64,000 nt of DNA from Geodermatophilus sp. TF02-6 (GTDB lineage: Bacteria > Actinomycetota > Actinomycetes > Mycobacteriales > Geodermatophilaceae). Positions within the stretch are counted from its first letter, which is position 1, and every line of letters begins with the position of its first letter. Where the stretch lies: assembly GCF_003319115.1 (NCBI RefSeq), contig NZ_QOHF01000015.1, positions 1-64,000 on the forward strand, read 5' to 3'. Positions 15,575-19,719 of the stretch are shown here, in pieces. Position numbers and translations under genes: made by a program. The notes under the pieces were generated by a model. The model made no database searches, had not been told where the DNA came from, and saw nothing but the letters and a program-made list of their open reading frames with translations.

Positions 15575-16147
15575 CTAGACCAGTCCCCTGCTGGCCGAGC
15601 GGGCCCTGCCGGGACGCAGCCGGATGTCGACGGGCAGGTCCGGGTCGTCGACGGCCTGCCGTGCGTGGCCGACGGTGCGGTCCTCGAGGGCGCGCCGGAT
15701 CTCGGCGATGTCGGCGTAGTCGGCCAGGTCGACGGTCAGCACGAGCCGGCGGCCGCCCTCGTCGCGCAGGTGGGCCGAGGCACCGGCGACGCCGCGCAGC
15801 CTCTCGACCTCCTCCTCCACGGCGTCGCTGAACCCGCCGGCGTGGACCGTGGTGAGCCCGTCGCGGTCGTCGACGGTGAGGTCCAGACGCCCGACGCGGT
15901 CGGTCGCCAACTGGGCGAACAGCCACCGCAGGCCCAGCAGGGCCAGCACCAGGCACCCGACCGCCACGGCCCACCAGAACCACGGTTGGTCGTCGGGGTA
16001 GGTGCGCACCCGGTCGGGCAGCACCGGGTCGGTGCTGTCGCCGACGAGACCGAAGCTCACGGCCAGGCCGGCCACGCCGGCTGCGAGGAGGACCAGGCCG
16101 AGCAGCAGCAGGACGACGCGGTTCACCCCGTTGACCCGGCGCCTCAT
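15575..16147 (-). CDS. amaP: Asp23 membrane anchor AmaP-like protein
   Basis: A 190-residue protein with two N-terminal membrane helices (NRVVLLLLGLVLLAAGVAGLAVSF and WAVAVGCLVLALLGLRWLF) followed by a cytoplasmic beta-rich domain (RLDLTVDDRDGLTTVHAGG onward). This is the layout of AmaP, which tethers Asp23 to the membrane in Staphylococcus. It is last in the minus-strand Asp23 cluster and overlaps the preceding gene by 4 bp (16144-16147). Confidence 0.8.
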   Translation of the reverse strand: MRRRVNGVNRVVLLLLGLVLLAAGVAGLAVSFGLVGDSTDPVLPDRVRTYPDDQPWFWWAVAVGCLVLALLGLRWLFAQLATDRVGRLDLTVDDRDGLTTVHAGGFSDAVEEEVERLRGVAGASAHLRDEGGRRLVLTVDLADYADIAEIRRALEDRTVGHARQAVDDPDLPVDIRLRPGRARSASRGLV

Positions 16148-16674
16148 CGGGAGGCCTCCTGGGAGACGGTGACCCGCGCGCGCAGCCGGTCGGCGAGGCC
16201 GAGTTCGCGCAGCTGCCCGGTGACCGCGTCGGACACCCGCTGCTGCAGGTCCCCCGGTGAGCGCAGGGCGGTGGCCGCCCGCACCCGCACGGCGCGCCGT
16301 CCGGCCCTGGCCCGCGCGTCGCGCACCCCGTCGGTGCGGCGGGCGGCGCTGGACAGGGTCCGCTCGATCCCCCGGCGGGACGCCGTGACCCGGACCCCCT
16401 CGGTCCGGGCCGGCAGCGTCAGCGACCCGGGCCGGCCGCGGCGCACCGCGGCGAGCAGGAGCAGCAGGCCGAGGACCACCATGCCGATCAGCACCGCGCG
16501 CACGATGCCGTCGCCGAAGCTCTGCTCGCGCAGCCAACTCGTCCACCGGTCGTAGGGGACGACCAGGTGGGGGCGGTCGAGGGCGGCCAGCACGATCTCG
16601 ACGACCGCGAGCAACCCCCCGAGGAACAGCCCCAGGGCGAGCAGGGTGGCGAGGACCCGGTTCAGCACGTGCAC
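16144..16674 (-). CDS. DUF6286-type membrane protein of the Asp23 cluster
   Basis: 176 residues with two predicted membrane helices (ATLLALGLFLGGLLAVVEIV and AVLIGMVVLGLLLLLAAV) and a basic cytoplasmic domain (about 95 residues). The general plan parallels the adjacent AmaP-like protein, suggesting a second membrane anchor for Asp23-domain proteins. This class of protein recurs in actinobacterial Asp23 operons. Function beyond envelope stress is not established. Confidence 0.75.
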   Translation of the reverse strand: MHVLNRVLATLLALGLFLGGLLAVVEIVLAALDRPHLVVPYDRWTSWLREQSFGDGIVRAVLIGMVVLGLLLLLAAVRRGRPGSLTLPARTEGVRVTASRRGIERTLSSAARRTDGVRDARARAGRRAVRVRAATALRSPGDLQQRVSDAVTGQLRELGLADRLRARVTVSQEASR

Positions 16675-16702
16675 GTGTGCTCCTCTCTCGAGCGTTCCCT
16701 CG

Positions 16703-17149
16703 TCACCGCACGCGGCGCGGTCGAGCCGCGGGGGAGCTCATGCTCACGACGTCGATGTCGATGTGGTCGATCCGGATCCCGGTGAGGTGCCGGACGTCCT
16801 GGCGGATCTGTCGACGGACCCGGTCGGTGACGGCGCGCACCGACGCCGGCCAGCTGACGGCGATGGAGGCGTCGACGGTGGCGGTGGAGCCGTCGACCCG
16901 GGCGTCCACCGAGGCCTCGGTGGTGGAGCGGGCGTCGCCCACGTTGACCCCGAGCAGCCGGCGGGGGGCGGCGCTGGCTCCCTCGACCCGGGTCACCGCG
17001 TACCCCGCGACCCGGTCGACCACCCGGTCGGCGACGACCAGCCCGCCACGGTCGGCCGGGTCGCCCAGCTCGGGGAAGGCCGTGCCCACGTCGGCCGGCT
17101 GGAGGGCTCCGGTGGGTGCGTCCGCCGAGGTGGAGAGGGCCGTGCTCAT
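16703..17149 (-). CDS. Asp23/Gls24-domain protein
   Basis: A 148-residue Asp23-type protein. GGLVVADRVVDRVAGYAVTRV near residue 36 and VDASIAVSWPASVRAVTDRV near 90 are the two halves of the Asp23 domain, ending in HLTGIRIDHIDIDVVSM. Compared with the first Asp23 protein of the cluster it lacks the Tyr-Gly-Val-Pro motif, having SWPAS instead. It probably lies under the membrane with AmaP. The ATG at 17149 overlaps the end of the small membrane protein gene. Confidence 0.83.
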   Translation of the reverse strand: MSTALSTSADAPTGALQPADVGTAFPELGDPADRGGLVVADRVVDRVAGYAVTRVEGASAAPRRLLGVNVGDARSTTEASVDARVDGSTATVDASIAVSWPASVRAVTDRVRRQIRQDVRHLTGIRIDHIDIDVVSMSSPAARPRRVR

Positions 17150-17331
17150 CGAGAGCCGCGGCCGCCGCCGCCCAGGTAGGGGGTCAGGTCCAGCTGGCCG
17201 GAGACCACCTTGCCGACGAGGAACCCGACCACGCCGAGGACGGCCGTGCCGACGCAGGCGTCGAAGCCGCCGACGACCCAGGCCAGACCGAGCAGCAGGC
17301 CGGTGAACAGTCCCACCACGGTGGGGGGCAT
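17146..17331 (-). CDS. DUF2273-like small membrane protein (61 aa)
   Basis: Two hydrophobic helices (VVGLFTGLLLGLAWVVGGF and CVGTAVLGVVGFLVGKVVSG) in 61 residues, with a Gly/Arg-rich C-terminus. Small proteins of this shape are regular members of Asp23/AmaP operons and probably help build the membrane anchor. The ATG at 17331 has a GGAGG sequence upstream. It overlaps the next gene by 4 bp and is itself overlapped by the open frame of the gene upstream. Confidence 0.75.
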   Translation of the reverse strand: MPPTVVGLFTGLLLGLAWVVGGFDACVGTAVLGVVGFLVGKVVSGQLDLTPYLGGGGRGSR

Positions 17332-17474
17332 GGAACACCTCCGATGGAGAGGGGAGTGGATGGGGGATCAGCGCCCGCGGCGACGGCGCCGCGGGCGGCG
17401 CCGAGGTCCGGGTGGTGGGCCTTCAGCAGAGCCCGGCGTCGCCGGCGCTCCTCGGGGTCCGACTGGTACGGCAT
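17184..17474 (-). CDS. Small basic protein with HPD motif, possibly frameshifted
   Basis: The ATG at 17474, with GGAG upstream, opens MPYQSDPEERRRRRALLKAH followed by HPDLG. This short Arg-rich helix plus HPD resembles the J-domain loop. After HPDLG the sequence becomes low-complexity and the frame runs 148 bp into the next gene, which is unlike a tidy operon gene. A reading-frame shift after DLG would give a basic tail and a stop at about position 17370. I treat the N-terminal 25 codons as probably real and the rest as doubtful. Confidence 0.35.
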   Translation of the reverse strand: MPYQSDPEERRRRRALLKAHHPDLGAARGAVAAGADPPSTPLSIGGVPCPPPWWDCSPACCSVWPGSSAASTPASARPSSAWSGSSSARWSPASWT

Positions 17475-17494
17475 GTGTGTGGCTCCGGACCCGC

Positions 17495-17824
17495 TCAGGC
17501 CGACGACCCGGCCGGCAGCGCGGGCCGCTCGTCGGGCAGGAGCAGGTCGTGGACGTGGACGTCGACGGGCCGGTCCCCGGCCAGGGGTGCGACCGCCTCC
17601 CGGATCTGCTCGGCCACGGCGGCCATCGGCAGGCCGTGGACGGCGATCACCGCGACCCGGACGCGGTCCGGCGAGACGTACACCCCGTCGACCCGTCGTC
17701 CGGGCAGGTAGGTGGCCGTCGAGCGCGGTCCACCCGCGTGCAGCGAGGCCACCGCCGGGCAGGCCGCCACCGCGGCGGCGAGGGCGTCCGCCTCGACCGC
17801 CACGGTGTCCGGCCCGGCGCTCAT
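17495..17824 (-). CDS. Minimal Asp23-like protein
   Basis: A 109-residue protein with a short Asp23-like fold: ACPAVASLHAGGPRSTATYL, then VRVAVIAVHGLPMAAVAEQI and a VDVHVHDLLLP strand. The IAVHGLPMAAVAEQIR segment aligns with the IAVDYGVPIPQVAEQVR segment of the other Asp23 proteins here. The ATG at 17824 overlaps the preceding Asp23 stop (17821-17824), so it is translated with it. It may be an accessory subunit. Confidence 0.75.
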   Translation of the reverse strand: MSAGPDTVAVEADALAAAVAACPAVASLHAGGPRSTATYLPGRRVDGVYVSPDRVRVAVIAVHGLPMAAVAEQIREAVAPLAGDRPVDVHVHDLLLPDERPALPAGSSA

Positions 17825-18285
17825 CGGACCCGCGGGGGCTCCTGCGGGCCCTCGTCGTCGCCGGGCAGGTGGATGTCGTTGACCGAGATGTTGACCTCGG
17901 TGACCTGCAGGCCGGTCATCCCCTCCACCGAGGCGATGACGTTGCGCCGCACCGAACGGGCCACGTCGACGATCGGCACGCCGTACTCGGTGACCAGGTC
18001 CAGGTCGACCGCGGCCTGCTTGTCCCCGACCTCCACCGACACGCCCTGACCGATCGACTGGCTGGCGCCGGGGATCCGCTCGCGCAGCGCACCGATCGTG
18101 CGGGCCGCGCCACCGCCGAGGGCGTACACCCCGGAGACCTCCCGCGCCGCCAGGCCGGCGATCTTCTGCACCACGTCGTCGGCGATCGTGGTGTTGCCCT
18201 GGCTGCTCTGCAACGAGGACGGAGACGCCTGCGCGATGGTGCTGGAGGACGTCGAGGTGCTGGTGGAGCTCGGTGACTGCGTCAC
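17821..18285 (-). CDS. Asp23/Gls24 family envelope stress protein
   Basis: A 154-residue protein, first gene of the minus-strand cluster. A Ser/Thr-rich N-terminus of about 30 residues precedes a full Asp23 domain: TTIADDVVQKIAGLAAREV, VDLDLVTEYGVPIVDVARSV and MTGLQVTEVNISVNDIHLP. Asp23 proteins form a membrane-associated layer and counter cell-wall stress in Firmicutes. The GTG at 18285 has AGGAAGG upstream. The gene is divergent from the ECF sigma factor at 18473, with a shared promoter region of less than 190 bp. Confidence 0.9.
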   Translation of the reverse strand: MTQSPSSTSTSTSSSTIAQASPSSLQSSQGNTTIADDVVQKIAGLAAREVSGVYALGGGAARTIGALRERIPGASQSIGQGVSVEVGDKQAAVDLDLVTEYGVPIVDVARSVRRNVIASVEGMTGLQVTEVNISVNDIHLPGDDEGPQEPPRVR

Positions 18286-18472
18286 GGTGGTGCCTTCCTG
18301 AGCATCGGGTACGACTACGGTCCTGTGCCGAGGGGCAGCAGCGGCGATGCGGGTACGCCGTCCTGTCCGCGCGGCGGCGGCTCACACCTCTTTCGACACA
18401 CTCCAGCGGGGAAGGGTTACGGGCCATGGCCAGGAGAACGCAACGGCGCACCGTCTCGCCGGTCGTCCGCTC

Positions 18473-19051
18473 GTGACAGGAGGACCATCGGGCGATGACG
18501 CTCCGGCCGATCCGACCGAGGCCCGCTGGGTGGAGCTGGCCCGCGCGGGGGACGAGGACGCCTTCGCGGCGCTGGTCCGCACCCACCAGGACCGGCTGTA
18601 CGCGGTCGCGCTGCGCATGACCGGCGAACCGCACGACGCCCAGGACGTCGTCCAGGAGGCGCTGCTGCAGGCCTGGCAGCACCTGCCCACCTTCCGCGGC
18701 GACGCCCGGTTCTCCACCTGGGTCACCCGGATCGTGGTCAACCGCTGCCACAACCTGCGCCGGGCCGCCCGACCCGTCCAGCCCCTGCCCGACGAGGAGG
18801 ACGCGGCAGCGACCCTGCCGTCCTCACCGGCCGCGGAGACCCTGGCCGTCTCGGCGCGCCGGCGCGAGGCCGTCCGCCAAGCGCTGCTCGCCCTGCCCTT
18901 CGACCAACGCGCTCCCCTGGTGCTGACCACGTTCAGCGGCTGTACGTACGGGGAGACGGGGCGGATCCTCGGGATCAGCGAAGGGGCCGCCAAGGTCCGG
19001 GCCCACCGCGCTCGGCGTGCTCTGTCCGACCGTCTGCGGGAGTGGAAGTGA
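18473..19051 (+). CDS. ECF-type RNA polymerase sigma factor
   Basis: A 192-residue sigma-70 factor of the ECF class. Region 2 begins DEDAFAALVRTHQDRLYAVA and includes DAQDVVQEALLQAWQHLPTF and RFSTWVTRIVVNRC; region 4 runs from LLALPFDQRAPLVLTTF to ISEGAAKVRAHRARRAL. The start is uncertain: the GTG at 18473 is used, though the frame is open back to an ATG at 18347 that follows a TACGGT -10-like sequence. The next gene, overlapping by 4 bp, carries an anti-sigma-type zinc motif, so the pair probably forms a stress-sensing switch for the divergent Asp23 operon. Confidence 0.88.
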   Translation: MTGGPSGDDAPADPTEARWVELARAGDEDAFAALVRTHQDRLYAVALRMTGEPHDAQDVVQEALLQAWQHLPTFRGDARFSTWVTRIVVNRCHNLRRAARPVQPLPDEEDAAATLPSSPAAETLAVSARRREAVRQALLALPFDQRAPLVLTTFSGCTYGETGRILGISEGAAKVRAHRARRALSDRLREWK

Positions 19052-19719
19052 CCGCGGTGCCCGGCAACGAGGAGAACGCCGCTCCCGGCGGCGCCGGCGG
19101 TGGAGACCGGCTGCCCTGCGGCGCCTCGGTCGACGACCTCTTCGCCCAGGTGACCGCCGGCGCCCGGCCGAGGGACGCCGACCACCAGCGGACCTGCCCG
19201 CACTGCCGGGCCCACCTCGCCGAGCTGCAGGAGCTCTGGGCGCCGGTGGAGGCGCTCGCCGCGGAGGAGGTGCGCGCCCCTGCGGGCCTGCTGCAGGCGG
19301 TCATGGCGCAGGTGCGGGAGCTGTCCCGCCACACCTGGTACGCCGTGCTGCCCGGACCCACCGGTTCCACCCGCGTGGCCGCCCGGGTCGTCGGGGCCGT
19401 CGCCCGGCTCGCCGCCGAGTCGGTCCCCCACGTCACCCTGGCCCTGGGCGGAGGACACACGGCCACTCCTCCCGGCGGCACTCCCGACCCCGACCGCATC
19501 GCCGGGCAGGAGAGCGAGTCCGCCACCGACGTCGGCGTCGCGGGCACCCGCGTCGTCGTCGACGTCCAGATCGCCGTGGACTACGGCGTCCCGATCCCGC
19601 AGGTCGCCGAGCAGGTGCGCGCCCAGATCATCCGCCACCTGGATGCGCAGACCGGGCTGACCGCCAGCGAGGTCGACGTCACCGTGGTCGACGTCCGTCC
19701 GCCGGGGACCGCCCGGTGA
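19048..19719 (+). CDS. Zinc anti-sigma motif fused to an Asp23 domain
   Basis: A 223-residue two-part protein. The N-terminal part has DHQRTCPHCRAHL, the exact Hx3Cx2C arrangement of zinc anti-sigma (ZAS) domains, followed by APVEALAAEEVRAPAGLL. The C-terminal part (about residues 145-218) is an Asp23 domain: TRVVVDVQIAVDYGVPIPQV, then TGLTASEVDVTVVDV. The GTG at 19048 overlaps the sigma stop (GTGA). The fusion suggests a soluble anti-sigma that docks onto the Asp23/AmaP layer and releases sigma on envelope damage. The domains are seen directly; the mechanism is inferred. Confidence 0.82.
   Translation: MTAVPGNEENAAPGGAGGGDRLPCGASVDDLFAQVTAGARPRDADHQRTCPHCRAHLAELQELWAPVEALAAEEVRAPAGLLQAVMAQVRELSRHTWYAVLPGPTGSTRVAARVVGAVARLAAESVPHVTLALGGGHTATPPGGTPDPDRIAGQESESATDVGVAGTRVVVDVQIAVDYGVPIPQVAEQVRAQIIRHLDAQTGLTASEVDVTVVDVRPPGTAR

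Follow-up and report, generated by a model that had tools for sequence, protein, structure and literature searches.

A predicted ECF sigma factor and ZAS-Asp23 anti-sigma pair beside an Asp23-AmaP operon in actinomycetes

Two diverging gene units meet in a 64,000-nucleotide stretch of the Geodermatophilus sp. TF02-6 genome (contig NZ_QOHF01000015.1, positions 1 to 64,000; hereafter the window). On the minus strand, an operon running from 18285 to 15575 encodes, in order, asp1, asp2, the remnant of an HPD-motif gene, a DUF2273-like gene, asp3, DUF6286 and AmaP. On the plus strand, a gene for an extracytoplasmic function (ECF) sigma factor is overlapped by a gene that fuses a zinc-binding anti-sigma (ZAS) domain to an Asp23 domain. 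Sequence comparison suggests that the sigma factor and the ZAS-Asp23 fusion probably form a narrow sigma/anti-sigma switch for an Asp23-AmaP layer lining the membrane. A first-pass annotation of the window had described the overlapping pair and its divergence from the Asp23 operon, and the Pfam domains and a 4-nt gene overlap bear this out. The exact Hx3Cx2C motif that it reported is present as HQRTCPHC, residues 46–53 of the fusion.

The layout is widespread in actinomycetes and is not a product of chance. At an E-value of 0.001, the fusion query matched in 33 of 61 genomes (its own and those of relatives), many of them through the Asp23 domain alone, and in 107 of 296 genomes drawn from the class. 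Matches at 1e-30 or better occurred in 9 of the 61, including 4 of the 25 other genomes of the genus. For the comparison of neighbourhoods we combined the window with 40 fetched stretches and 80 named loci, the latter being the best 80 of 572 from an asp1 scan and biased to close relatives. A usable asp1 was present in 120 of these 121 loci, L080 being dropped for lack of an asp1 match. Removal of the exact duplicates L101, L106, L107 and L135 (the asp1 region of L106 is identical to that of L063) left 116 loci, among which close relatives were kept. Gene boundaries in the relatives come from a simple open reading frame caller written for this analysis.

A sigma match lies within 6 kb of the operon in 74 of the 116 loci and is missing from the other 42. 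Forty-five of the sigma-bearing loci have a ZAS-Asp23 partner (27 and 17 as called, plus L104, which carries the promoter element described below and was reassigned to this type), 24 have a zinc-less Asp23-like partner, and 5 have neither. These five were set aside: L110 has a broken sigma gene, L113 and L127 have no adjoining partner, and L143 and L171 carry another kind of pair. The promoter element is present in L110 and L113. In L113 and L127 an ECF sigma gene is kept beside the Asp23 operon, and a recognisable anti-sigma gene was not seen adjacent to it. Hosts of ZAS-type partners include Blastococcus, Nocardia, Lentzea, Saccharothrix, Actinosynnema, Prauserella and Amycolatopsis. Among the 44 called ZAS-type pairs, 23 show the window's divergent arrangement relative to the asp operon, 19 lie upstream on the same strand and 2 lie downstream. 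The partner start overlaps the sigma stop in all 68 called pairs, by 4, 10, 14, 16 or 19 nt, under a caller that favoured short overlaps. The neighbourhood comparison proposed in the first-pass annotation thus finds the layout recurring across actinomycete families, and we rejected a lone-genome oddity.

The zinc half is, by its sequence matches, a ZAS-type anti-sigma domain, with C24 as a putative fourth ligand beside Hx3Cx2C. Searched against the PDB, a profile of this domain matched RsiW (2.4e-5), RslA (6.7e-4) and ChrR (0.15), with an unrelated zinc-finger chain at 0.018; a profile of the whole fusion matched RsiW at 3.1e-4, an unrelated zinc finger at 0.0015 and RslA at 0.048. The closest solved chain to the sigma factor by sequence is SigW (5wuq_A, 1.8e-23), so both partners have their best PDB sequence match in the SigW-RsiW pair of Bacillus subtilis. 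RsiW is membrane-anchored, whereas in the fusion no segment exceeded the hydrophobicity threshold applied. The columns of C24, H46, C50 and C53 are filled in all 44 aligned ZAS-type partners, which were picked through a C-x15..35-Hx3Cx2C pattern, so that ligand invariance is partly by construction and the constant C24 column does not imply a universal motif. Hx3Cx2C is present in 27 of the 35 matches of the first fusion profile.

The first-pass annotation had pointed to the region upstream of 18285 as a place to look for an ECF promoter, and a conserved ECF-type element is found there before asp1. Its general form, GT[AG]A[CG]-N15/16-GTGTC before asp1, the sigma gene or both, is a predicted promoter that co-occurs with the ZAS-type sigma factor; in the window, 16 nt separate GTAAC from GTGTC. 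The element was first spotted by eye in the intergenic regions of loci L062–L101, as GTAACC-N-GTGTC toward asp1 in the window's clade and CGTGACG-N-GTGTCC in other families, and then tested on the held-out loci L103–L182. With a spacer of 14 to 19 nt, 36 of 74 sigma-bearing loci carry the pattern (50 shuffle rounds: mean 2.2, maximum 5), as do 4 of the 42 without a sigma match. With a spacer of 14 to 16 nt, it was found in 17 of 27 ZAS, 2 of 4 zinc-less and 0 of 8 sigma-less discovery loci. Among the held-out loci, the corresponding counts were 15 of 18, 0 of 20 and 3 of 34 (Fisher 1.2e-7 and 5e-8, values that overstate independence because close relatives were kept). The held-out ZAS row stood at 14 of 17 as called, before the correction of L104. 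The row without zinc stood at 1 of 23 as called, the one being L110, and its final 0 of 20 includes L175, the same locus as the already inspected L101, without which it is 0 of 19. The swapped and the reversed control pattern each matched in 2 of the 116 loci. A chance motif was rejected by the shuffles, the control patterns and the held-out loci.

Spacers in sigma-bearing loci measure 15 nt (32 cases) or 16 nt (14 cases). Conservation extends outside the pattern to a C before GT[AG]A (31 of 40) and to a C-W-W-C run after GTGTC, with C in 27 and 29 of 41. In a de novo count of dyads in ZAS loci, CGTGA..GTGTC was the commonest before asp1 (15 loci) and among six tied commonest before the sigma gene (14 loci). 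Where the sigma gene leads the operon, the element stands before both sigma and asp1 in L071, L072, L083, L114, L118, L124, L133 and L147; the window and its closest relatives have it directed at asp1 only. Other arrangements were seen by eye. Three loci of the same genus without the sigma gene (L090, L091, L093) have a different conserved block upstream of asp1, TTGTTGTTTAC with a downstream G-rich stretch, perhaps the promoter of another sigma class. The mycobacterial loci L151, L167, L177, L112 and L162, with a zinc-less partner, have in common a sequence before asp1 that may be a variant promoter; its clearest instance reads GTTCGGTT..CGACTA.

Genome-wide, the element is sparse. An extended form, GTAACYCN13-14GTGTCSAA, occurs exactly once, at the asp operon, in each of the five same-genus genomes that bear the fusion, and in none of the eight searched same-genus genomes in which the fusion gene was not found; the pattern was shaped on those five genomes, and its informative parts are the uniqueness per genome and the absence from the eight others. 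In G026, a genome of the same family but a different genus, the fusion is present and the extended element absent. At the G026 locus (L066), a shortened sigma match reaches the asp1 match and the divergent promoter region is apparently gone, through either a deletion or an assembly fault. Relaxed to GTRACN15-16GTGTCSA, the pattern matches the window's own genome 8 times (control pattern, 0); in 7 cases the match falls within a called gene, on the strand opposite to it. With the asp1 site alone falling between genes, the regulon of the sigma factor most likely consists of its own Asp23 operon and a small number of other genes. The self-contained circuit suggested in the first-pass annotation is thus supported by comparison as a largely self-contained one, through the promoter element, the sole intergenic site and the ZAS-type domain.

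Zinc ligands are dispensable in this family. Twenty-four of the 69 classified sigma partners lack both the zinc motif and any Cys within residues 1–70, and these proteins (144–194 aa) retain the helix that follows the zinc motif together with an Asp23-like domain. Profiles of the ZAS-type and zinc-less partners match across the helix and Asp23 with 99.4% probability (E 3.4e-21). Since Pfam sees Asp23 at E 0.01 in only 28 of 44 ZAS-type and 9 of 24 zinc-less partners, the Asp23 assignment rests partly on comparison with the asp1 profile, which the two partner profiles match at 98.1% (ZAS-type) and 95.8% (zinc-less). In a quick tree of the sigma factors (70 rows; L066, L110, L143 and L171 left out), 16 zinc-less rows make up one starred group, and the others (L094, L095, L096 and L175; L149, L150 and L172; L089) are nested among zinc-type rows. 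This scatter indicates that the zinc motif changed state more than once; the tree's 7 state changes are an overcount, as L104 and L127 carry wrong labels. We therefore rejected the zinc motif as the family's defining sensor. The anti-sigma had been read from the outset as a zinc domain joined to Asp23; the ZAS-type assignment holds by sequence, and the 24 zinc-less partners make the motif inessential. The Asp23-like half is the constant part of these partners and the ligands are the variable one, which makes Asp23 the probable point of entry for the signal and disfavours zinc or thiol chemistry as a universal signal.

As in Staphylococcus aureus, Asp23 and AmaP are encoded in one operon in the window. 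The S. aureus operon is under SigB and, to our knowledge, has neither an ECF sigma factor nor a zinc fusion. In that species AmaP, from the same operon, holds Asp23 under the membrane, Asp23 forms filaments, and deleting asp23 or amaP induces the cell-wall stress response; the same account describes the molecular function of Asp23 as still unclear (PMC6954212). By analogy, the actinomycete Asp23 and AmaP proteins would form a membrane layer too. In the switch that we propose, the ZAS-Asp23 protein would be translated together with the sigma factor and hold it through a putative four-helix zinc domain, while its Asp23 half, either docked on the membrane layer or exchanging with the layer's subunits, would read the layer's state. 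A disturbed layer or a shortage of subunits would free the sigma factor, which would transcribe the asp operon, and in many relatives its own gene, from the GT[AG]A[CG]-N15/16-GTGTC promoter. Once the layer was rebuilt, inhibition would be restored, closing a feedback loop. We infer the sigma binding, the use of the promoter by this sigma factor, the docking of the Asp23 half and the signal. A more specific version is conceivable, though we hold it doubtful: the anti-sigma factor could be a subunit of its own layer, its Asp23 half joining or capping Asp23-AmaP polymers, so that the sigma factor reads free against assembled Asp23. The cell would then gauge the completeness of its coat and order replacements, with zinc only stabilising the sigma-binding half. 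Published expression data give mixed hints about the signal: in Curtobacterium aetherium, desiccation raises the expression of Asp23 genes and of two unspecified sigma factors (PMC12029717), whereas an Asp23 gene falls after ethanol shock in Streptomyces venezuelae (PMC9769785).

The most familiar alternative places the sensor in the zinc half, where oxidation or zinc loss at C24, H46, C50 and C53 would unfold the anti-sigma factor and free the sigma factor, as in RshA or ChrR, leaving the Asp23 half merely to localise the protein. We consider this unlikely. The nearest solved relative, RsiW, is controlled by proteolysis and is not known to respond to redox chemistry, and the zinc-less partners, some of them nested among zinc-type ones in the sigma tree, have the Asp23-like half but neither the motif nor early cysteines. 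What speaks for a redox or zinc sensor is that the four putative ligands co-occur in the ZAS type and that soluble ZAS anti-sigmas normally answer oxidative stress, according to PMC8999054.

It is also improbable, in our judgement, that the sigma factor mainly regulates other genes and that the Asp23 operon is a mere neighbour under a different regulator to which the element belongs. The promoter was assigned by pattern only, 13 of the 45 ZAS loci lack it in the tested form, and targets with a more diverged element would escape a pattern search; yet the element tracks the ZAS-type sigma factor rather than the operon, also stands before the sigma gene in many loci where that gene leads the operon, and has its only intergenic match of eight at asp1. 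A third reading makes the fusion a component of the layer with a structural zinc domain, the sigma factor being set by abundance alone, and L113 and L127, with their sigma genes and no recognisable adjacent anti-sigma gene, would fit it. Against this, the zinc domain is matched best in the PDB by anti-sigmas whose structures were determined together with their sigma factors, and every called pair overlaps, which leaves this reading highly improbable.

The host genome (4.7 Mb, 53 contigs) has three Asp23 Pfam matches at E up to 0.1, all at this locus (Table 1). Of the three further Asp23-like proteins named in the first-pass annotation, asp1 and asp3 exceed the Pfam cut-off; asp2 falls below it, yet an asp2-type gene is called somewhere in 76 of the 116 loci and occupies the same place in many relatives by their gene maps. 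The AmaP-like and DUF6286-type assignments are confirmed, each over its family cut-off. The DUF2273-like assignment stays below its Pfam cut-off, while such a gene recurs, being called somewhere in 99 of the 116 loci and mapping to the same place in many relatives. The HPD-motif gene, doubtful at first reading, is a real gene in relatives, with calls in 30 of the 116 loci, and its copy in the window is a shortened remnant: from its ATG (17474) to the DUF2273 ATG is 143 nt in the window against 297 nt in L062. No credible Pfam family was found in the six HPDxGGD copies scanned (five from relatives and the window's own), which gave a single sub-threshold match, to an unrelated model. With a shortened copy and no such match, a working J-domain protein in the window was rejected.

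Table 1. Features of the Asp23-AmaP locus and its sigma/anti-sigma pair, in window positions.
Feature	Position	Strand	Evidence
AmaP-like membrane anchor protein, 190 aa	15575–16147	-	NCBIfam NF033218, 56.2 bits (cut-off 55, passes); hydrophobic segments
DUF6286 membrane protein, 176 aa	16144–16674	-	Pfam PF19803, 3.6e-23, over cut-off; hydrophobic segments
Asp23 protein asp3, 148 aa	16703–17149	-	Pfam PF03780, 1.3e-11, 45.3 bits (cut-off 28)
Small DUF2273-like membrane protein, 61 aa	17146–17331	-	Weak Pfam match, E 0.089, under cut-off
HPDxGGD small-protein gene, shortened remnant	17331–17474	-	Comparison with full-length relatives of 79–123 aa
Small Asp23-like protein asp2, 109 aa	17495–17824	-	Weak Asp23 match, E 0.14, 13.0 bits (below cut-off 28)
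Main Asp23 protein asp1, 154 aa	17821–18285	-	Pfam PF03780, 1.9e-30, 105.9 bits (cut-off 28)
Predicted ECF promoter of the asp operon	18395–18420	-	-35 GTAACC 18420–18415, -10 GTGTC 18399–18395; pattern comparison
ECF sigma factor	18473–19051	+	Pfam Sigma70_r2 1.2e-20, r4_2 6.6e-14; NCBIfam
ZAS-Asp23 fusion, predicted soluble anti-sigma factor, 223 aa	19048–19719	+	4-nt overlap with sigma gene; profile matches
Asp23 domain of the fusion, residues 106–217	19363–19698	+	Pfam, 49.5 bits (cut-off 28); genome search; AlphaFold2 model
Putative zinc ligands C24, H46, C50, C53	19117–19119, 19183–19185, 19195–19197, 19204–19206	+	Cys and Hx3Cx2C pattern

The fusion resembles RsrA, a soluble ZAS anti-sigma factor encoded beside an ECF sigma gene. 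It also resembles the soluble anti-sigmas of the ChrR and RshA type, which have their zinc anti-sigma domain at the N terminus and are likewise encoded next to an ECF sigma gene, and ChrR too has a C-terminal sensor domain (PMC8999054). Unlike the cupin of ChrR, the C-terminal domain of the fusion is Asp23, of the same family as the products of the operon. Asp23-type anti-sigmas are already known as a prediction: ECF286 and ECF292 adjoin soluble Asp23-family proteins predicted to be anti-sigmas, in a 2022 review that sets both groups aside for lack of experimental data and lists the ZAS groups separately (PMC8999054). The window's sigma gene likewise adjoins the gene of a predicted soluble Asp23-family protein; as far as the account in PMC8999054 goes, no zinc domain, promoter or target is named for ECF286 or ECF292. 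Judged from titles and abstract openings, we recognised no experimental work on a pair of an Asp23-type anti-sigma and an ECF sigma factor among the papers that our literature searches listed. Two things are new at the level of sequence: a ZAS-Asp23 architecture with four ligands, set beside its zinc-less sister form, and a predicted promoter element with a single intergenic site in the genome. The primary ECF286/ECF292 classification paper, reportedly Casas-Pastor 2021, may already describe the zinc half. If the main target of the sigma factor is its own Asp23 operon, sigma activity would be a simple reporter of the state of the Asp23 layer. A predicted 26-nt promoter can now be named and tested, along with the likely main target, and Asp23-linked ECF sigma factors more widely, ECF286 and ECF292 among them, may use a promoter of this kind.

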